Made by a program: the position numbers and the translations under genes. This document shows positions 223-7,414 of a DNA stretch of 7,414 nt, piece after piece. Position 1 is the first letter of the stretch; each line of letters starts with the position of its first letter. The notes under the pieces were generated by a model, which had not been told where the DNA came from, ran no database searches, and saw only the letters and a list, made by a program, of their open reading frames with translations. The stretch is from Acidobacteriota bacterium (GTDB lineage: Bacteria > Acidobacteriota > Terriglobia > Acidoferrales > UBA7541): contig JAFAZL010000184.1 of assembly GCA_019239815.1 (NCBI GenBank), positions 1 through 7,414 of the forward strand. The letters run 5' to 3'.

Positions 223-1248
223 TCAGAAAGCAGGATCTTCCGTAGCTTCGATCGTATCGGCGCGCGACGCAGTGGGCGCTTTCGAGGAACCGCGGTGTGG
301 CGCGGTGATGACCAGGAGCACCGCTGCCAGGATCACGACCCCGGCCAGAATCGTTCGCAGAGTGATCGATTCATGCACGAAGAGCCACCCCAGAAAGAGC
401 GCGACCACCGGATTCACAAACGCATACGTCGCCACGCGCGTGGCCGTGCTGTGTTTCAGGATGTACAGATATGACGAAAAACCAATCATCGACCCAAAAC
501 AAACCAGATAGGTGACCGCGATCCAGGAACGTGTCGTCACCGCCGAAAGGTGAAGCGCACCAATCTCGCCCGTCACGCCGCCGAGAATCCACAGAATCGC
601 TCCGCCGGTCAGGCTTTGCATCGCCGAGCCCAGCAAAGGAGAACTCGGCATCCGCCCGTGTTTCGCATAGATGGAGCCGCACGCCCAGGCGAACGAGCCA
701 ACCCCGAGAATCGCAGCACCGATGGGGTCGATTCGTCCCGACCCGCCGAGATCCTTCGGGCCGACAAGCAGCGCGAGTCCAGCGAATCCGAGGACAAGCC
801 CAACGATGACGCGCGGCACCGGCCGTGTTCCGCCAGGCCTCAGCCAGTCGATGAGAACCATCCACAACGACACCGTCGCGACCAGTAACGCTGCGATTCC
901 TGACGGGACGCGCTCTTCCGCCAGGCAGACTCCCCCGTTCCCGACCGCCAGCAAGAGGAACCCGGTTACGATCGTGCTTCTCCACTCTGCCCACGTAGGT
1001 CTGGCCTTCGTCTTCCACAACAGAATCGGAAATGCAATCAGACCAAACGTGAAATGCCGGATTCCGGCTACGAGCAATGGTGGAAAGGATTCATCGCCAA
1101 TTCGAATTGCGAGAAACGTCGATCCCCAGATCAGGTAAACCGCCGCAAAAGCCGCGAAGAGAATCGTCGGATTTGACGATGCGTGCGGGTCGTGCGTGGA
1201 AGAGATTACCTTGAAGCTACTAACAGATTGGGGTTCCGTTGCCGACAT
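223..1248 (-). CDS. yedA: YedA-type EamA/DMT-superfamily exporter
   Basis: This 341-residue inner-membrane protein has about ten hydrophobic segments, near residues 28-48, 58-78, 93-109, 115-134, 146-163, 174-195, 205-223, 241-263, 272-291 and 298-315. They form two EamA repeats. Hallmarks shared with E. coli YedA include YLIWGSTFLAIRIG (38-51) with PPLLVAGIR, LLLAVGNGG (98-106), VPSGIAALLVATV (114-126), SFAWACGSIY (185-194), FGSMIGFSSYLY (251-262) and YAFVNPVVALFLG (275-287). Family members export metabolites or drugs, probably using the proton gradient. The substrate here is not predictable. The N-terminus is about 20 residues longer than usual, and ATG 1246-1248 has no clear ribosome-binding site, so translation may begin downstream. 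The C-terminal 25 residues are hydrophilic and cytoplasmic. It is divergent from the PilZ gene and upstream of ada in the same direction. Confidence 0.93.
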   Translation of the reverse strand: MSATEPQSVSSFKVISSTHDPHASSNPTILFAAFAAVYLIWGSTFLAIRIGDESFPPLLVAGIRHFTFGLIAFPILLWKTKARPTWAEWRSTIVTGFLLLAVGNGGVCLAEERVPSGIAALLVATVSLWMVLIDWLRPGGTRPVPRVIVGLVLGFAGLALLVGPKDLGGSGRIDPIGAAILGVGSFAWACGSIYAKHGRMPSSPLLGSAMQSLTGGAILWILGGVTGEIGALHLSAVTTRSWIAVTYLVCFGSMIGFSSYLYILKHSTATRVATYAFVNPVVALFLGWLFVHESITLRTILAGVVILAAVLLVITAPHRGSSKAPTASRADTIEATEDPAF

Positions 1249-1261
1249 TGGACCGTTGAGC

Positions 1262-1279
1262 CGACGTTACCGAACGTCG
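1262..1279 (-). promoter_or_regulatory. 18-bp palindrome upstream of the exporter start
   Basis: CGACGTT (1262-1268) and AACGTCG (1273-1279) are perfect 7-bp inverted arms around a 4-nt spacer, ending 13 bp before the exporter start codon. The size and position suit a dimeric repressor operator, for example of the TetR class that often controls exporters. A short hairpin in the mRNA leader is also possible. No regulator gene is next to it in this window, so the cognate factor is unknown. Confidence 0.45.
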
Positions 1280-1433
1280 ACAGTTCACACAAATGTAGAT
1301 TCGACACGGCGGGAGATACAGCACCATTTTGGAGTGGATTCCCCGCAACCACATTCTGTTGGGCAGCGGAGGCGAAATCTATCCGCTAATCGTGGTCGAA
1401 TTTCCGACGGTTGTTCGCCGCCCAATAGACCCC

Positions 1434-1468
1434 TTTCTATCTTCCAATTTCCATTTTCCGATTTCCAA
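1434..1468. repeat. Degenerate 7-bp tandem repeat (about five units)
   Basis: Five consecutive heptamers read TTTCTAT, CTTCCAA, TTTCCAT, TTTCCGA and TTTCCAA. The consensus is TTTCCAW. On the other strand this is a purine-rich TTGGAAA-type tract. Pyrimidine and purine are almost fully segregated between strands, unlike the flanks. Confidence 0.6.
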
Positions 1469-1567
1469 CCTCCGCCTCCCCGTACCATAACCATCCGTTT
1501 GATCTTAGGACACTTGGGGCGTTTTCCACAGGTTGACGCTGCACCTCCTTCAATGACATCTTAGCGA

Positions 1568-1611
1568 CCCAACTTTTACATGTTGGGGGCTTGCCTGGTC
1601 GGTACTAGAAT
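1568..1611 (+). promoter_or_regulatory. Probable promoter of the PilZ gene with an overlapping hairpin
   Basis: CCCAAC (1568-1573) and GTTGGG (1582-1587) form a 6-bp inverted repeat with an 8-nt loop. The right arm overlaps a -35-like TTGGGG (1583-1588). A 17-bp spacer then leads to TAGAAT (1606-1611), five of six matches to the sigma-70 -10 consensus. Transcription would begin about 60 bp before the PilZ start codon. The -35 keeps only TTG, so the site may need an activator or may be repressed through the inverted repeat. A second TAGAAT at 1650-1655 is an alternative -10. Confidence 0.35.
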
Positions 1612-1656
1612 CAAGGGCGCAAATTGATAGCTGGGTGGGTAAGTCGGATTAGAATC
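1598..1656 (+). repeat. Direct repeat GTCGG-N(2-3)-TAGAATC, two copies
   Basis: GTCGG-TAC-TAGAATC (1598-1612) and GTCGG-AT-TAGAATC (1643-1656) are about 45 bp apart upstream of the PilZ gene. Twelve bases are shared, with a 1-bp difference in spacer length. They could be duplicated promoter -10 regions or paired binding sites for one regulator. Confidence 0.45.
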
Positions 1657-1676
1657 GGTATCGCTGAGGGGCGATC

Positions 1677-2231
1677 ATGAGGTCCACGAGCCTCGCGTTA
1701 ATTCTTGACTCCACTGCCATCGACTCCATACCGGAGGTCCGCGCGACGCTCGCCGTCGCCGCTCCCGCTCCGCTAGCTCCAGCCGCGACATCTGAGCGGC
1801 GCCCTTCGCTTCGTGTCATGCCTCTCCTGAGCGAGACCAAGACTCGACAGTTCGTACGCGTCCCGACTCACGCCGTTGGCGTCCACCCCGAACACCGCGA
1901 ATATCCACGCGCAACGTTGCGCCTGCCGCTGCGGCTTCGCAGCGTCAACGAGGTTCAAGAACGATTCCCGATCACCTTAGTCACACGCGACATCAGCTCC
2001 AGCGGAGTCTTCTTCCTCTGCCCCAAGCACTTAGCCGCGGGCACGAAGATCGAAATCGAAATTATTCTCGTGAGCCGCCCGATGGGCCGCGGCAATGTGG
2101 TCGTCGCGACCGCCGCCCGTGTGAAACGCCTCGAACCCGCCGCAACTCCGGGGTGGTACGGCGTCGCCGCCCTTTTCGAAGACGTCGCATTCGATCGCGA
2201 CGACCGCGTCCCCACTCGGTTCATGAGTTAG
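1677..2231 (+). CDS. PilZ-domain protein, predicted c-di-GMP receptor
   Basis: This is a 184-residue cytoplasmic protein. PilZ domains bind cyclic di-GMP and pass the signal to motility, exopolysaccharide or transcription machinery. Both binding motifs are present: RxxxR at R74-EYP-R78, and DxSxxG at D105-I-S107-S-S-G110. The barrel continues through GTKIEIEIIL (122-131), ARVKRLE (147-153) and the typical ending GVAALFEDV (162-170). Residues 1-70 precede the domain, are rich in Ala and Pro (especially 24-37), and match nothing I recognise. They may be a disordered linker. The start at ATG 1677 has a good Shine-Dalgarno site, GAGGGG at 1666-1671, 5 nt upstream. Met48 is an alternative. The gene stands alone, between its own promoter region and a terminator. 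No GGDEF or EAL enzyme is nearby, so its target is unknown. Confidence 0.88.
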   Translation: MRSTSLALILDSTAIDSIPEVRATLAVAAPAPLAPAATSERRPSLRVMPLLSETKTRQFVRVPTHAVGVHPEHREYPRATLRLPLRLRSVNEVQERFPITLVTRDISSSGVFFLCPKHLAAGTKIEIEIILVSRPMGRGNVVVATAARVKRLEPAATPGWYGVAALFEDVAFDRDDRVPTRFMS

Positions 2232-2240
2232 CCTTGGACT

Positions 2241-2262
2241 GCGGTGCCTCGGCGCCGCTTTT
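2241..2262 (+). terminator. Rho-independent terminator after the PilZ gene
   Basis: GCGGTGC (2241-2247) pairs with GCGCCGC (2252-2258) as seven pairs including one T-G wobble, with a CTCG tetraloop. TTTT (2259-2262) follows. It lies 9 bp after the PilZ stop codon, and the downstream phosphatase gene starts 62 bp later. The T-run is short, but the stem is very GC-rich. Confidence 0.6.
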
Positions 2263-2324
2263 GCGATTCAAGCCCAACCGACCGCCGTTTCGTTCCGGGC
2301 CAGGTTTCGCGCTAATCTCCTTCG

Positions 2325-2987
2325 ATGCCCCCGCGATCAGTCCGTCAACTTCAAGCTGTTCTATTTGACTGGGACGGCACGCTCCTTGACTCGTTCGACG
2401 CCGATTCTTCCGCCTACCTCGCGATGTTCCGCGAACTCGGCATCCCCTGGGGATTGAAAGAATTAGCCATTCACTACACGCCCAACTGGCATCGTGTCTA
2501 TCGCGCCGCCAAAATCCCCCGTTTGAAATGGGATCTCGCCGACAAACTCTGGGCCAAAAATTACGCTCACCACGAACCGAAGCTCGTCTCAAGCGCCCGC
2601 AGCGTGCTCTCCTGGGTCACTCGCCGCTATCACGTCGGCCTCGTCACGAGCGGTGATCGCGCCCGCGTCCTGCGCCAGCTCCGCTACTTCGGCCTGACCC
2701 GCGTTTTCGCCACGCGCGTCTGCTCCGGTGACACTCCGGAGAAAAAGCCGCATCCGGCGCCGTTGCGCCTCGCCCTCAAACAGATGTGCCTCAAGCCCAG
2801 CGCCTGCGTCTACGTCGGCGACTCCCCGCATGACCTGGAAATGTCAGAGCGCGCAGGAGTTCGCGCCATCGCCGTCATCGGCCGCTTCCCCACCGAGGCA
2901 GGCCTCCGCGCCGCAAATCCAGAATTTCTGCTGAATTCGCTGAAGGAACTTCCAGCAACCCTCAAGTCTTTAGAAAAACAATCGTGA
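2325..2987 (+). CDS. HAD-superfamily hydrolase, phosphoglycolate-phosphatase-like (subfamily IA)
   Basis: This 220-residue soluble phosphatase has all four HAD motifs. Motif I is D15-W-D17-G-T-L, with D15 the aspartyl nucleophile and D17 the acid/base. Motif II is VTSG (107-110). Motif III is K141 in KKPHP. Motif IV is GDSPHD (165-170), with D166 and D170 binding Mg2+. Residues 22-95 form the helical cap that selects the substrate, as in Gph and PpaX. The length is normal for the group. The substrate cannot be read from the sequence. Phosphoglycolate, pyrophosphate or another small phosphate ester are options, so I give no gene symbol. ATG 2325 is the only credible start. It has no Shine-Dalgarno site, and a -10-like GCTAAT (2311-2316) lies just upstream, so the mRNA may be leaderless. 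It is separated from the PilZ gene by a terminator and faces the next gene at 9 bp. Confidence 0.9.
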   Translation: MPPRSVRQLQAVLFDWDGTLLDSFDADSSAYLAMFRELGIPWGLKELAIHYTPNWHRVYRAAKIPRLKWDLADKLWAKNYAHHEPKLVSSARSVLSWVTRRYHVGLVTSGDRARVLRQLRYFGLTRVFATRVCSGDTPEKKPHPAPLRLALKQMCLKPSACVYVGDSPHDLEMSERAGVRAIAVIGRFPTEAGLRAANPEFLLNSLKELPATLKSLEKQS

Positions 2988-2996
2988 GGAAAAAAC

Positions 2997-3926
2997 TCAC
3001 CGCTGCGGTGGCGGCGTAAGTTGAGGCTGCGACTGCGGCGCAGATTGCGGAGTTGGCTGCGTTGGTGCCGAACTCGATGGCGCCGAACTCGCGGCCGGCG
3101 CAGGCGTCGTATCCGAAACCGCAGCCGCCAGCGGCTTAAAATCCGTCCACTTGATCACCAGCCGCACCGGAAAATCGCCTTCTTTCACGTGCACCGTTTC
3201 GTCTGACCGCTCATAATTCGGAAACCAATATTTCCCGTCCACATTTTCCCGATACGTCTCAAACGTAGTGAATGGCATCTTCGCAAATTTCACATCCCCC
3301 AATTCATTCACCCATCGCCCATACGTCTTCACGACTTCCAGATATTGCTGATCCACCCAAATGATCCCGTCTAGATACGCGCTCTTGCGATCCACAACCT
3401 TCGGCGTCACTTTAAAAATATACGTGTCGAGCTCGTCGACCTTCTCAGTCCCGATATATTTCAAATCGTATTTTGCGAGCTGCGACGAATTGATCGGAAA
3501 TTGCGGAATCCGCTCCAGTTCCTTCACATCTTCCGGCTCGAGCGCAAAAACATGTAGCGTCGATTGCGGATGCTCAAGCACTTTGTTCACGACGCGCCCG
3601 TCCGGCATCCGCGTCACTTCCGACACCTGCAAATACTGTCCCATGATGGTTCCGTTTCGATCGTACTCATCGATTCGAATCGTCTTTTTCGCCACAAACG
3701 TCGGCCGCACCGACGCAAACTGATCTTCCTTCGCCACAAATTTTCGAATGATTTCATCCGGCGGCAGCGACGGCGGCTCCGGAGCCTCCGGCGTATTCCC
3801 CAGCCGCTTCACATCGTGTTCCGGAGGCGGCGTCATCGGCCGCTCTTCCTGCGCCCGCGCCGCTCCATTGCCCCACAGCAACAGTGCCGCGCACGCCAGC
3901 AATCCGACTTTCAACCCAGCTTTCAT
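2997..3926 (-). CDS. Secreted LolA-like protein (outer membrane lipoprotein-sorting protein family)
   Basis: This is an exported protein of 309 residues. Residues 1-25 are a signal peptide: K2 and K6, hydrophobic VGLLACAALLLWG, then ARA before Q26. C12 follows LLA and might be read as a lipobox, but the hydrophobic stretch before it is too short to be convincing. Residues 27-58 are Pro- and Glu-rich. The core at about 59-265 has the alternating strand pattern of LolA/LolB-like proteins, for example KKTIRIDEYDRNG (80-92), DTYIFKVTPK (167-176) and LDGIIWVDQQYLEVVKT (185-201). Residues 270-309 are a low-complexity Ala/Ser/Pro/Gln tail, partly encoded by a duplicated 10-mer (3067-3076, 3082-3091). 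The frame is open up to 4106. I chose ATG 3926 because it begins the signal peptide and avoids overlapping the acylphosphatase gene. The ribosome-binding site is weak. The precise role is unknown; family members act on the envelope side of the inner membrane. Confidence 0.8.
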   Translation of the reverse strand: MKAGLKVGLLACAALLLWGNGAARAQEERPMTPPPEHDVKRLGNTPEAPEPPSLPPDEIIRKFVAKEDQFASVRPTFVAKKTIRIDEYDRNGTIMGQYLQVSEVTRMPDGRVVNKVLEHPQSTLHVFALEPEDVKELERIPQFPINSSQLAKYDLKYIGTEKVDELDTYIFKVTPKVVDRKSAYLDGIIWVDQQYLEVVKTYGRWVNELGDVKFAKMPFTTFETYRENVDGKYWFPNYERSDETVHVKEGDFPVRLVIKWTDFKPLAAAVSDTTPAPAASSAPSSSAPTQPTPQSAPQSQPQLTPPPQR

Positions 3927-4029
3927 ATTCAGTGAGATGCGCTCAGGTCTTCCCGCGCAACTTTGCCTCTCGACGCAGCCTCTCTCTCGAGCCCACAGCT
4001 TACTCCACGGAACCCTTTCTCGCCTCCGC

Positions 4030-4058
4030 CTGACTTCCCTCCGCGCTTTCGCTACAAT
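4030..4058 (+). promoter_or_regulatory. Sigma-70-like promoter of the acylphosphatase-apt pair
   Basis: CTGACT (4030-4035, four of six to TTGACA) and TACAAT (4053-4058, five of six to TATAAT) are separated by exactly 17 bp. Initiation would fall near 4064-4066, only a few bases before the GTG start at 4069, giving an almost leaderless message. This agrees with the lack of a Shine-Dalgarno site there. Confidence 0.5.
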
Positions 4059-4068
4059 TTCAAAGCTT

Positions 4069-4362
4069 GTGGACAACGCAAAAAAAGCATCCCGTTTCTT
4101 CGTCACAGGTCTCGTGCAAGGAGTCGGCTTCCGTTTCTTCGCGCAGGCCGAAGCCGAACGCCTCGGCCTCAGCGGCTACGTTCGCAATCTGCGTGACGGC
4201 CGCGTCGAAGCCTACGCCATCGGCACGCCCGAACAGCTCGCGCAATTTCGAGCGCGCCTCGAAAAAGGTCCGCGCCTTTCTGTCGTCAGGTCCGTCGCCG
4301 AACAAGCCGCGGAAATTGAATCTGAACACGCATTCGGTTTCGTCACAGCTCACACCCTCTGA
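4069..4362 (+). CDS. acyP: Acylphosphatase
   Basis: This small cytoplasmic enzyme (97 residues) hydrolyses the carboxyl-phosphate bond of acylphosphates such as acetyl phosphate or 1,3-bisphosphoglycerate. The first signature is V12-TGLVQGVGFR22, where R22 binds the phosphate. The second is GYVRN40-LRDGRVEA, where N40 is the catalytic Asn. The length is typical of the family. The frame extends far upstream, but only from 4069 does the protein have family size. GTG 4069-4071 is the nearest start codon, and a promoter-like TACAAT sits 10 bp before it. It lies 21 bp upstream of apt and probably shares its transcript. It is divergent from the secreted-protein gene across a 142-bp region. Confidence 0.92.
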   Translation: MDNAKKASRFFVTGLVQGVGFRFFAQAEAERLGLSGYVRNLRDGRVEAYAIGTPEQLAQFRARLEKGPRLSVVRSVAEQAAEIESEHAFGFVTAHTL

Positions 4363-4383
4363 ATTTCACAGGAGCCCGCAAGG

Positions 4384-4905
4384 ATGGACGATCTAAAAAG
4401 TTTGATCCGTGAAGTACCCGATTATCCGAAGCCAGGAATTCTGTTCTACGACCTCACCACCGTTCTCAAGGACAAGCAAGGCTTCCACAATCTGATCGAC
4501 CAGCTTTGCGCGCACTACAACGGGCACAAGATCGACGTCGTCACCGGCATCGAAGCCCGCGGCTTCATCTTCGCACCAGCGCTCGCCTACCGACTCGGGG
4601 CCGGTTTCGTCCCAATTCGAAAGCCCAAAAAACTTCCCGCCAAAACGCGCTCCGTCTCCTACGCGCTCGAGTACGGCACTGATTCGATCGAAGTCCACGA
4701 AGACGCCATCAAGCCCGGCGACCGCGTCATCATCTGCGACGACTTGCTCGCCACCGGCGGCACCGCCGCGGCCGCCGCAAAACTCGTCCTGGAACTCGGC
4801 GGCAAAGTCGAAGGCCTCGCCTTCGCCGTCGAACTCACCTTCCTCAGCGGCCGCAAAAAACTTCCCGACTTTGACGTCTTCTCCCTGATCCAATACGACA
4901 AATAG
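4384..4905 (+). CDS. apt: Adenine phosphoribosyltransferase
   Basis: This purine-salvage enzyme makes AMP and pyrophosphate from adenine and PRPP in the cytoplasm. At 173 residues it has the standard bacterial length. The PRPP-binding signature of type I phosphoribosyltransferases is V115[12 protein letters not shown]127, with the acidic pair D119-D120. Other Apt hallmarks are [15 protein letters not shown] (12-26), GIEARGF (55-61), the flexible-loop segment RKPKKLP (79-85), and [17 protein letters not shown] (93-109). ATG 4384 is preceded by AGGAG at 4370-4374 with 9 nt spacing, the clearest ribosome-binding site of this strand after the PilZ gene. It is the second gene after acylphosphatase and faces rlmB across a 176-bp spacer with REP-like elements. 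Confidence 0.97.
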
Positions 4906-4961: not shown

Positions 4962-5029
4962 TGTCATCCTGAGGCGCGCGAAACGCGCCGAAGGATCTCA
5001 GCGTTAAACCCTACTTCTACTCTCAGCGA
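4962..5029. repeat. REP-like hairpin element, copy A
   Basis: This 68-bp element begins TGTCATCCTGAG. ATCCT (4966-4970) pairs with AGGAT (4992-4996). A GA/GA internal mismatch follows, then GGCGCG (4973-4978) with CGCGCC (4984-4989) around a CGAAA loop. About 33 bp of conserved tail follows. It lies between the convergent ends of apt and rlmB. No T-run follows on either strand, so any termination would not be of the classical intrinsic type. See copy B at 5866-5933. Confidence 0.65.
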
Positions 5030-5081: not shown

Positions 5082-5843
5082 CTACTTCTTCGCGTCCTTC
5101 CCTTTCGCCTTCCTCTGTCTCACCACCTCAAACAACACCACGCCTGCCGCCACCGAAACATTCAGCGACTTCACCGGCCCCACCGTCGGCAGCGACACGA
5201 CAAAATCGCACCGCTTCCTCGTCAACTCGTGCAATCCCTTGCCCTCGCCGCCCATCACAATGCCCACCGGCGATGTAAAATCCACCTCGGTGTACTCGCG
5301 ATCGCCCTCTTCATCCAGTCCCACCAGCCAAAATCCCGCCTCTTTCAACTCTTCCATCGTCCGCGCAAGATTCGTCACCTTCGCCACCGGCAGATGGGAC
5401 AGCGCTCCCGCCGAAGCTCGCGCCACCGTGTCCGTCAATCCCGCCGCCCGCCTCTCCGGAATTACCACGCCATGCGCACCGGCCGCCAGCGACGTTCGAA
5501 CGATCGCGCCCAGATTGTGCGGATCTTCCACGCCATCCAATAAAACAACCAAGCCCTTCTCGCCGCGCGCGGCGCCCGCGTTCGCGGCCTCGATAATTTC
5601 CTCAATCGTTCCCGCCGCCCGCGCCGCCACCAGCCCGACAATCCCTTGGTGATCCTTCGAATCCGCCAACCGGTCAATCTGCGACCGATCTTCAAACCGC
5701 ACCGGAATATTTCGCGCCCTCGCCAGCTGCACAATCTCTTCCACACGCGAATCCTGCCGCCCGCGCGCGATCACGATGCGGTCAAACGCCCGCCCTGCCT
5801 CCAACGCCTCCCGCACCGCATGTATTCCCGTCAACCGATCCAC
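5082..5843 (-). CDS. rlmB: 23S rRNA (guanosine-2'-O)-methyltransferase RlmB (TrmH/SpoU family)
   Basis: This 253-residue enzyme transfers a methyl group from S-adenosylmethionine to the ribose 2'-O of a guanosine in 23S rRNA; in E. coli this is G2251. An RNA-binding substrate domain (residues 4-76: GIHAVREAL near the start, DHQG at 64-67) precedes the knotted SPOUT domain. Motif 1 is N110-LGAIV-R116, where R116 is the catalytic Arg. Motif 2 is GIVMGGEGKGL with E200. Motif 3 is LPTVGPVKSLNVSVA with S226 and N228. The C-terminus is Lys-rich. The frame also offers GTG at 5849. I chose GTG 5843 because GGAG (5852-5849) lies 5 nt before it, while 5849 has no site. It is the last gene of the leftward ispD-ispF-orphan group. 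TrmH (tRNA) is a possible relative, but the N-terminal domain favours RlmB. Confidence 0.92.
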   Translation of the reverse strand: MDRLTGIHAVREALEAGRAFDRIVIARGRQDSRVEEIVQLARARNIPVRFEDRSQIDRLADSKDHQGIVGLVAARAAGTIEEIIEAANAGAARGEKGLVVLLDGVEDPHNLGAIVRTSLAAGAHGVVIPERRAAGLTDTVARASAGALSHLPVAKVTNLARTMEELKEAGFWLVGLDEEGDREYTEVDFTSPVGIVMGGEGKGLHELTRKRCDFVVSLPTVGPVKSLNVSVAAGVVLFEVVRQRKAKGKDAKK

Positions 5844-5865
5844 ACCCACTCCATCAAGTCTGATC

Positions 5866-5933
5866 TGTCATCCTGAGCCGACCGCAGGTCGGCGAAGGAC
5901 CTCAACGTCCAGTCCTACCCCAAGACTCAACGA
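5866..5933. repeat. REP-like hairpin element, copy B
   Basis: This copy has the same 68-bp length and orientation as copy A. It starts with the same TGTCATCCTGAG. The stem is GCCGACC (5877-5883) with GGTCGGC (5887-5893) around a GCA loop. It is flanked by the same GA/GA mismatch and by TCCT (5871-5874) with AGGA (5896-5899). The last 40 bp match copy A at about 28 positions. It fills most of the 99-bp gap between the orphan gene and rlmB, ending 23 bp before the rlmB start on the transcribed strand. Confidence 0.65.
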
Positions 5934-5942
5934 CATTCCTCG

Positions 5943-6497
5943 CTATTCCATCACCGAGCAAAACTCCACCATCCGCTCCCTCACCGTCTTCACCGCAAAT
6001 CCCGCCTCCGCCGCCGCATCCACCAACAAAATCACGCGATCCAATTCTCCCTCACCCGATCTTCCCGCCAGCGCCAATCGGAGCGGATGAAACAATTCCC
6101 GCCCGCGAATATCCAACTCCGCCTTCATCGTCGTTACAATTTCGCTGAACCGTTCCGGCGTGCAAGCCCCTCCATCCAACACGAGCCGCGCCAGCATTCG
6201 AACCACATCGCGCGCCGCATACCGTGTCATCACGTTGTGCGCTTCAACATCATCCAGCACGCGGACCGCGTCATACTCAAAAACCAGCCGCAGCAAATCC
6301 GCCAGCCCGTCGCGATCCGCAACCTGCGGCCCCAACAGAAACGCCGCGCGCTCGCACCACACTCGCCGTGCTCCGTCGTCGCCGCGCTCCTCACACACAT
6401 CCCACCCGCGCGACGCCAACACTTCGGCAATATCCGCCATGGAAAACGGATTCAACGCGACTGCCTGATTTTCTCCAGGAATTTCGCCCGCGCTCAT
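5943..6497 (-). CDS. Orphan protein resembling the GluRS anticodon-binding domain
   Basis: This is a predicted 184-residue cytoplasmic protein. Residues 113-180 resemble the C-terminal part of glutamyl-tRNA synthetase. TPERFSEIV (113-121), then KAELDIRGRELFHPLRLALAG (125-145), ELDRVILLVDAAAEAGF (151-167) and VRERMVEF (172-179) follow the family pattern KGRELFHPxRLALTG...PELDxxxPL. Residues 45-90 (WCERAAFLLG, LLRLVFEYDAV) could be the preceding helical subdomain. The whole catalytic half is missing: no HIGH, no KMSKS, and only 35 bp separate it from ispF. It therefore cannot aminoacylate alone. It may bind tRNA, assist another synthetase, or be a gltX remnant kept in frame. Its place between ispF and rlmB matches gltX in Bacillus. 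ATG 6497 lacks a clear ribosome-binding site, and Met20 is an alternative. I am sure it is coding, and moderately sure of the homology. Confidence 0.75.
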   Translation of the reverse strand: MSAGEIPGENQAVALNPFSMADIAEVLASRGWDVCEERGDDGARRVWCERAAFLLGPQVADRDGLADLLRLVFEYDAVRVLDDVEAHNVMTRYAARDVVRMLARLVLDGGACTPERFSEIVTTMKAELDIRGRELFHPLRLALAGRSGEGELDRVILLVDAAAEAGFAVKTVRERMVEFCSVME

Positions 6498-6532: not shown

Positions 6533-7015
6533 CTAAGCTCGGCCACTCAACGTAGCCGCCACATGGCACGCGATCGCCTCGCCGCGTCCAACCGCATCCA
6601 CACCCTCGTTTGTCTTCGCTTTCAAGTGAATCTTGGCAGCAGGAACGCCCAGCGCCTTCCCCAGCGCCTCTCTCATCTTCGGAAAATGCGGTCCCAACTT
6701 CGGCCGCTCCAGAATCACCACAGCATCCACCCACTCAATCGCAAACCCTGCGCCATCCAGCAGCCCCCGCGCATGCTCCAAAAATTTCAAACTGTCCGCG
6801 TTCTTCCATCGAGGATCCGTATCTGGAAAATGCTTCCCGATGTCCCCAAGCCCCGCCGCACCCAGCAACGCATCGCACAACGCGTGCGCCAGCACATCTC
6901 CATCTGAATGCCCGACCGGCCCTTTGTCGAACGGCACCTCGACGCCGCCGATCATCAACTTTCGCCCTTCCGCCAGTCGATGCAGGTCGTACCCAATCCC
7001 GCAGCGCACGCTCAT
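6533..7015 (-). CDS. ispF: 2-C-methyl-D-erythritol 2,4-cyclodiphosphate synthase
   Basis: This is the fifth enzyme of the MEP isoprenoid pathway. It cyclises the CDP-methylerythritol 2-phosphate intermediate to MEcPP, releasing CMP. At 160 residues it has family length and probably forms a homotrimer. The zinc ligands are D10-x-H12 in GIGYDLHRL, and H44 in DVLAHALCDALLGA. GHSDGD (35-40), KHFPDTDP (61-68) and KAKTNEGVDAVGRGEAIA (132-149) are the conserved substrate and nucleotide segments. The variant TNEGVDAVGRGEA in place of the E. coli TTTEKLGFTGRGEG form is common in other phyla. ATG 7015 overlaps the ispD stop as ATGA, which suggests translational coupling and explains the poor ribosome-binding site. 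Confidence 0.97.
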   Translation of the reverse strand: MSVRCGIGYDLHRLAEGRKLMIGGVEVPFDKGPVGHSDGDVLAHALCDALLGAAGLGDIGKHFPDTDPRWKNADSLKFLEHARGLLDGAGFAIEWVDAVVILERPKLGPHFPKMREALGKALGVPAAKIHLKAKTNEGVDAVGRGEAIACHVAATLSGRA

Positions 7016-7414
7016 TTCGCCGCGTGCCCCTTCCCGCTCGCCGAACCCGCTGCCTGTTCCCGCTCCAGATAAAACTTCGCCAACTCCATATCCGCCGGCT
7101 TCGTAATCTTGATGTTCCGCTCCGATCCCAGCACCACAAAAACTTCCTGCCCGAGCCGCTCCACCAACCCCGCTTCGTCCGACGCGCTCACTCCATCTGC
7201 CTCCGCCCTCGCAAACGCTTCCTTCAGCAATTTCGTCGTAAAAACCTGCGGCGTCTGCGCCAGCACCACGCGCTCGCGCGGAATCGTTGCCGTAATCAAC
7301 GCCACGTCCTCCGGCAGACTCGCGCGCTTTACTTCCTTCACCGTGTCCATCGCCGGAATTCCCAGAATCGCGGCCTTATGCTTCCGCGCCTCTTCGATCA
7401 CGCGCACGATCTGT
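7012..7414 (-). CDS. ispD: 2-C-methyl-D-erythritol 4-phosphate cytidylyltransferase, C-terminal part (partial)
   Basis: This enzyme joins CTP and MEP to give CDP-methylerythritol, the third step of the MEP pathway. The window holds the last 133 codons, a little over half of the usual 230-240. The N-terminal CTP-binding motif lies beyond the right edge. Conserved parts are visible: GIPAMDTVKEV (the DTxK segment), LAQTPQVF, SDEA and GSERNIKITKPADM. The last 17 residues or so (GSASGKGHAAK end) are a loose tail beyond the fold. The reading frame is open at the edge, so no start is present. The stop overlaps the ispF start by 4 nt, so the two are cotranscribed. Confidence 0.95.
   Translation of the reverse strand, partial: QIVRVIEEARKHKAAILGIPAMDTVKEVKRASLPEDVALITATIPRERVVLAQTPQVFTTKLLKEAFARAEADGVSASDEAGLVERLGQEVFVVLGSERNIKITKPADMELAKFYLEREQAAGSASGKGHAAK

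Follow-up and report, generated by a model that had tools for sequence, protein, structure and literature searches.

The window, a stretch of 7,414 nucleotides from an acidobacterium, encodes a 184-amino-acid protein that is a stand-alone anticodon-binding domain of bacterial glutamyl-tRNA synthetase (GluRS). We are confident that this domain originated from a former second GluRS (GluRS2) whose catalytic half was lost in the ancestry of one acidobacterial order.

A GluRS anticodon-binding domain without the enzyme

The gene lies at 5943..6497 on the minus strand and begins with ATG, as an earlier note on this DNA had described. Its upstream neighbor, at a distance of 35 nt, is ispF (6533..7015, minus strand; PF02542, E = 3.4e-62; TIGR00151), which is preceded by ispD (7012..7413, minus strand, cut by the end of the window; PF01128, E = 8.9e-27). 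Downstream, after 93 nt, is rlmB (5082..5849, minus strand; TIGR00186, 238.2 bits, with a cut-off of 160.15). Because ispF and rlmB are so close, there is no space for a catalytic domain, and searches of Pfam and NCBIfam with the 184-aa protein found no match to one. The note was right on both points. It had also recognized a GluRS-like pattern in RGRELFHPLRLALAG, ELDRVI, and VRERMVEF, and all three strings are in the second half of the protein.

The rest of the window (223-4905) has ordinary content: an EamA transporter, a PilZ protein, a HAD hydrolase, an acylphosphatase, a weakly LolA-like protein, and a phosphoribosyltransferase that is probably apt. Two similar imperfect palindromes (tcatcctgag...cgaagga...ctca) are found in intergenic regions at 4963-5002 and 5867-5909, and they look like a dispersed repeat.

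The earlier note had proposed a profile search and a structural comparison with GluRS, and both identified the domain. Using hhalign, a profile of 59 members of the family aligned with the C-terminal end of full-length GluRS across 159 columns (99.9% probability, E = 2.8e-33). The predicted model of the 184-aa protein (pLDDT 92.2) contains helices only and has the helical fold of the bacterial GluRS C-terminal domain (PF19269, Anticodon_2); its best 22 structural matches were all GluRS. Thus, hhalign and the fold agree on the C-terminal anticodon-binding domain. PF19269 was also found at E ≤ 1 in 36/36 aligned relatives (best E = 7.4e-7), and it is among the precomputed annotations of relatives.

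Might this be a chance resemblance, with the 184-aa protein being an unrelated helical protein? Its single-sequence matches are weak: it matches PF19269 with E = 4.6e-4 and 21.0 bits, which is under the gathering score of 23.6 bits, and it matches TIGR00464 (gltX) with E = 4.2e-4 at positions 353-456 of 470, with 19.3 bits (the cut-off is 289.95) and without the HIGH/KMSKS catalytic domain. No GluRS appeared among the PDB sequence matches of the single protein, the 36-row profile, or the 59-row profile, so the link to GluRS in PDB comes from fold comparison, not from sequence search. And when GluRS rows were left out, the predicted model was poor (pLDDT 52). Against this stand the profile match over 159 columns, the intermediate forms described below, and the full-length gltX that occupies the same slot in relatives. 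The profile match and the intermediates in effect refute a chance resemblance already, and we give it practically no credence.

Searching PHROGs with the 184-aa protein gave nothing useful, and searching plasmids gave one unrelated weak match. A scan of genome contigs with the single protein was unproductive; a later, alignment-based scan yielded 55 loci with the gene. Several relatives of about 180 amino acids are named "nondiscriminating glutamyl-tRNA synthetase" by one source even though the enzyme part is missing. Our finding exposes this naming as an annotation error.

From GluRS2 to a bare domain

According to PMC3927822, two of the acidobacteria examined have two GluRS: GluRS1, which has an HφGG motif, and GluRS2, which has HφGN and is predicted to be inactive. 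Acidobacterial GluRS2 is reported there for Koribacter versatilis and Acidobacterium capsulatum. The GluRS that our stand-alone profile matched are of the HφGN type in 21 of 24 rows by pattern (the pattern missed the other three), and HφGN is present in 15/15 of the GluRS2 regions that we fetched from the class. GluRS1 rows matched the stand-alone profile with E = 0.011 and a probability of 3.9%. Given the difference between 2.8e-33 and 0.011, the sequence comparisons support GluRS2 (HφGN), not GluRS1, as the probable source of the domain, which refines the earlier reading of a former "gltX." Also, the columns that hold ELDRVI are a gap in both of the GluRS1 rows (n = 2) of a joint alignment.

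When 48 anticodon domains were placed in a tree, a 100/100 branch put the 184-aa protein on the same side as GluRS2. Grouping it with GluRS1 was not rejected by the AU test (p = 0.13), and because both branches are long, this tree alone does not decide between GluRS1 and GluRS2. The clade of stand-alone and eroded forms is weakly supported (72/36) in this tree.

The genomes that carry the gene keep a GluRS elsewhere. As the note had suggested checking, we looked for full-length gltX, and it is over the family cut-off in 44 of 50 relatives' genomes that carry the gene. This GluRS is GluRS1, with HVGG in 16/16 aligned rows.

The slot between ispF and rlmB preserves a series of forms. Across the phylum, we fetched the best-scoring matches, each with about 1.5 kb of flanking sequence, which gave 29 loci with full-length GluRS; rlmB adjoins it in 19, ispF in 6, and both in 5. 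Within the class, all 15 fetched GluRS2 have SKRHG as well as HφGN, and rlmB comes after 9 of them. At the base of the order, a degenerate GluRS2 of about 333 amino acids occupies the slot in four genomes (G446, G447, G449, and G450, where it is cut by the contig's end). In these proteins, HIGH and SKRHG are gone and the C-terminal domain is intact. We tested two of them, and both matched PF19269 but no catalytic family at E ≤ 0.01. The degenerate gene is directly followed by rlmB in 3/4 of these genomes, and ispD and ispF lie roughly 270-900 nt upstream in 3/4 (they were not found upstream in G446). These observations bear out the note's proposal that an ancestral gltX at this locus lost its catalytic half: gltX is found here in relatives, and dead, shrunken intermediates fill the slot.

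The protein database contains 91 such eroded GluRS2, with lengths of 249-351 amino acids (median 332), and a wide gap in score separates them from full-length GluRS. None of the 91 has HIGH or SKRHG, and PF00749 is precomputed for just 4 of them. This eroded family (L145, L147, L148, and L149; P0121-P0211) is apparently undescribed itself.

The eroded and the stand-alone forms share a mark near the C-terminus, Glu-Phe-Cys, which in the 184-aa protein is residues 178-180 (5958..5966, minus strand). It is found in the last 15 amino acids of 111/120 stand-alone proteins and 73/91 eroded GluRS2, versus 0/24 and 0/29 full-length proteins of the GluRS2 type and 0/16 GluRS1.

The note had also proposed a survey of gene order. 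In 51 of the 55 loci, ispF, the stand-alone gene, and rlmB are in this order on one strand. Of the four exceptions, L006 and L016 are truncated at contig ends, L027 lacks rlmB within its final 525 nt, and L002 has rlmB inverted. The distance from ispF to the gene is 394-1067 nt in five loci. In two related loci, ispF and the stand-alone gene have an opposite-strand ORF of about 270-290 codons between them (L045:5161-5967 and L049:7996-8874, both minus strand). The loci are titled Acidobacteria gp2, Candidatus Acidiferrum or Acidiferrales, or Terriglobia, with two odd labels: L009 is titled Betaproteobacteria and L045 Bacillota, and as these loci group with Acidobacteria, they are probably mislabelled bins. 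By ispF and rlmB, the window's nearest relative is L003, from Candidatus Acidiferrum typicum.

In the order that contains genome G003, the gene was matched in 69 of 95 genomes. According to the listing, 61 of these have the main type, 1 has a second type, 4 have eroded GluRS2, 2 have two-piece frames (G046 and G478), and 1 has a remnant (G490). In the class, 119 of 299 genomes match, and all matches in frames shorter than 265 amino acids come from this order. In the phylum, where at most 8 candidates were scored per genome, 143 of 396 genomes match, and among the matches listed, G003 alone has a short frame (182 amino acids; the next shortest is 250).

The order has 27 genomes without an intact copy, and ispF is present in 21 of them. 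In 18 of those 21, ispF and rlmB are neighbors whose matches lie no more than about 235 nt apart; the other three are G490, with its remnant, and two that are cut. This ispF-rlmB arrangement is the state after repeated loss of the stand-alone gene. We built a tree of rlmB with 51 rows (the window, 28 of the 55 loci, 9 rows without the gene, 4 basal genomes, and 9 outgroup rows) and rooted it on genomes with full-length GluRS2. Its well-supported branches require that the gene's presence changed at least four times. A 97/96 clade unites the main stand-alone forms with the losses, and the eroded forms branch at the base, as does a second, small group of stand-alone proteins.

This second, divergent group has the same slot (L146:7167-7721, minus strand, in G451; P0241-P0247). 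The group, to which seven of the eight matches from its search belong (183-191 amino acids), stands apart near the base. It is possibly an independent truncation; none of the trees settles whether the stand-alone forms had one origin or two.

Conservation and possible roles

The note had held that the tRNA-binding part was retained with its frame intact, and it had suggested examining dN/dS. The stand-alone form is indeed widespread and under purifying selection. The frame is full in 54 of 55 loci (L050 is cut at 157 amino acids, beside an ambiguous base), and the 12 closest pairs have dN/dS values of 0.10-0.23. When all 539 pairs with dS below 1.6 are taken together, dN/dS has a median of 0.28 and does not exceed 0.62. 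In most of the same close pairs, ispF and rlmB evolve more slowly than the stand-alone gene.

Among 59 diverse stand-alone rows, 21 columns are invariant. Residues that do not vary in the stand-alone rows include Arg96, Arg100, Arg140, Gly145, Leu152, Asp153, Arg154, and Arg175. Most of the invariant residues are within residues 132-160 (GRELFHPLRLALAGRSGEGELDRVILLVD; 6018..6104, minus strand), which is the counterpart of the PLRxALTG anticodon-contact region of GluRS. Arg140, the arginine of the PLR motif (codon at 6078..6080, minus strand, from the per-position residue table), and Arg175 are also 100% conserved in 33 GluRS2 rows. We take Arg140 and Leu152 to correspond to the T. thermophilus anticodon contacts Arg435 and Leu447. 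Arg140 is replaced by Gln in 23% of 22 eroded rows. Other residues are invariant in the stand-alone family and not in GluRS2: Gly148, Gly150, Val155, Leu157, Leu158, Asp160, Phe167, and Cys180. The domain is net acidic (median -4, compared to -3 for full-length GluRS2) and is poor in lysine (median 3 versus 10).

Could the gene be a decaying, functionless relic of gltX? It has been lost repeatedly, it left a remnant in G490 and two-piece copies in G046 and G478, and in most close pairs its evolution is faster than that of ispF and rlmB. But 61 genomes of the order have the main type, and neither the low dN/dS values nor the 21 invariant columns fit with decay, so we consider a relic very improbable. 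Because residues of the contact region were kept and new invariants arose, the conservation pattern seems to fit better with an active but changed role, in which the anticodon-contact region was retained and then newly constrained.

The note had suggested a tRNA-binding helper, an accessory to another GluRS or amidotransferase, or a regulator, and these roles are plausible. We favor a role as a helper that would bind tRNA-Gln and/or tRNA-Glu in trans. In this proposal, the former GluRS2 lost its catalytic half, with domains 4-5 being kept as a separate protein, and charging passed to the full-length GluRS1 that is encoded elsewhere. Most likely, the domain would still hold on to one or both of tRNA-Gln and tRNA-Glu by the anticodon arm, and it may help GluRS1 and/or GatCAB to handle the tRNA during conversion of Glu-tRNA-Gln to Gln-tRNA-Gln. 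The invariance of Arg96, Arg100, Arg140, Arg154, and Arg175 in the stand-alone rows points to such a role. The GluRS2 of Helicobacter pylori and A. ferrooxidans are tRNA-Gln-specific, as stated in PMC3927822, which makes a leftover GluRS2 domain a natural candidate for a tRNA-Gln binder. Dubois et al. (2009) reportedly had a truncated GluRS stimulated in trans by a free distal domain of GluRS, which is in favor of a helper. In PMC3927822, acidobacterial GluRS2 is predicted to be inactive rather than tRNA-Gln-specific, which argues against it. Also arguing against a helper are the acidic, lysine-poor composition, the Gln at position 140 of some eroded rows, and the repeated loss from genomes that are equally equipped with GluRS and gatB. 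Overall, we judge a GluRS2 origin together with tRNA binding in trans to be somewhat probable.

Forming Gln-tRNA-Gln from mischarged Glu-tRNA-Gln by transamidation is an established pathway, and it is presumably how this order makes Gln-tRNA-Gln: GlnRS is over the cut-off in 0/95 genomes of the order (weaker matches, over the N-terminal part of the glnS profile, are found in 82), and gatB is over the cut-off in 84/95. Genomes that lack the gene share this equipment of GluRS1 and, for the most part, gatB (GluRS is over the cut-off in 26/27 without an intact copy, and gatB is matched in 24/26 without any match), so the pathway as such does not require the gene. We also considered whether the gene's presence tracks GlnRS or GatB, which these counts do not support. 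No gene for a separate catalytic half that the domain could complete stands out in the GluRS listings; there is an extra partial GluRS match in G485, which is a genome without the stand-alone gene.

Instead of recognizing tRNA, the helical fold might have been repurposed as a scaffold, making the protein an adaptor or regulator that binds RlmB, GatCAB, GluRS1, or the ribosome. The invariants that are absent from GluRS2 suggest a new constraint, and rlmB is a steady neighbor (the 51 loci mentioned above). However, the neighborhood says little about partners because it was inherited from full-length gltX, and Arg140 and Arg175, which are shared with GluRS2, are kept in every stand-alone row. We view an adaptor as possible but doubtful. 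If the domain does bind tRNA, it might instead be a competitor or sensor that binds uncharged tRNA-Glu or tRNA-Gln and limits or reports on charging. The same sequence evidence would apply, and the gene is easily lost in some lineages, but we saw no regulatory domain or partner and the domain is net acidic, so we regard this as decidedly unlikely.

A more specific version of the helper proposal is that the remaining GluRS2 domain acts as a natural anticodon-reading subunit, picking out tRNA-Gln in trans and guiding GluRS1 and GatCAB to this tRNA. We consider this version rather unlikely. If it is true, then formation of Gln-tRNA-Gln would rely on an anticodon reader outside the charging enzyme, and the eroded forms of about 333 amino acids would be steps from an enzyme to such a subunit.

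Relation to known systems

Bacterial proteins that derive from synthetases are better known for keeping the catalytic core, and GluQ-RS/YadB is the example from GluRS. Like the 184-aa protein, GluQ-RS is half of GluRS as a separate protein, but it is the opposite half, a catalytic domain without the anticodon domain (PMC3927822); the 184-aa protein has no GluRS-like catalytic domain. Proteins of the Trbp111 or Arc1p type are also stand-alone tRNA-binding modules beside a synthetase, as ours may be, but those have an OB fold (PMC11286949), while the model of our protein is all helices, with no OB beta-barrel. Acidobacterial GluRS2 has a homologous C-terminal domain and is beside rlmB, and sometimes also ispF, in relatives; the stand-alone protein differs by lacking any catalytic domain and by its new invariant residues. 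The closest in form are the eroded GluRS2, with the same slot beside rlmB, an intact anticodon-binding domain, and the C-terminal Glu-Phe-Cys, except that they keep a shrunken N-terminal remnant. Synthetase-derived proteins are known, but in the open-access literature that we searched, we did not come across a natural stand-alone protein of this kind that consists of the anticodon-binding domain of a bacterial GluRS.

For GluRS, this is a conserved natural reverse of the GluQ-RS/YadB case. A single locus preserves the complete enzyme, the dead and shrunken enzyme, the bare domain, and its loss, and because the intermediates survive, the locus is more informative than the earlier note stated. 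With this system, one could directly test whether a domain that recognizes anticodons is able to function separately from its enzyme, in a lineage that seems to depend on Glu-tRNA-Gln from GluRS being amidated by GatCAB. In these soil Acidobacteria, the half-eroded relatives show how an enzyme became a protein that no longer charges tRNA and probably still holds it.
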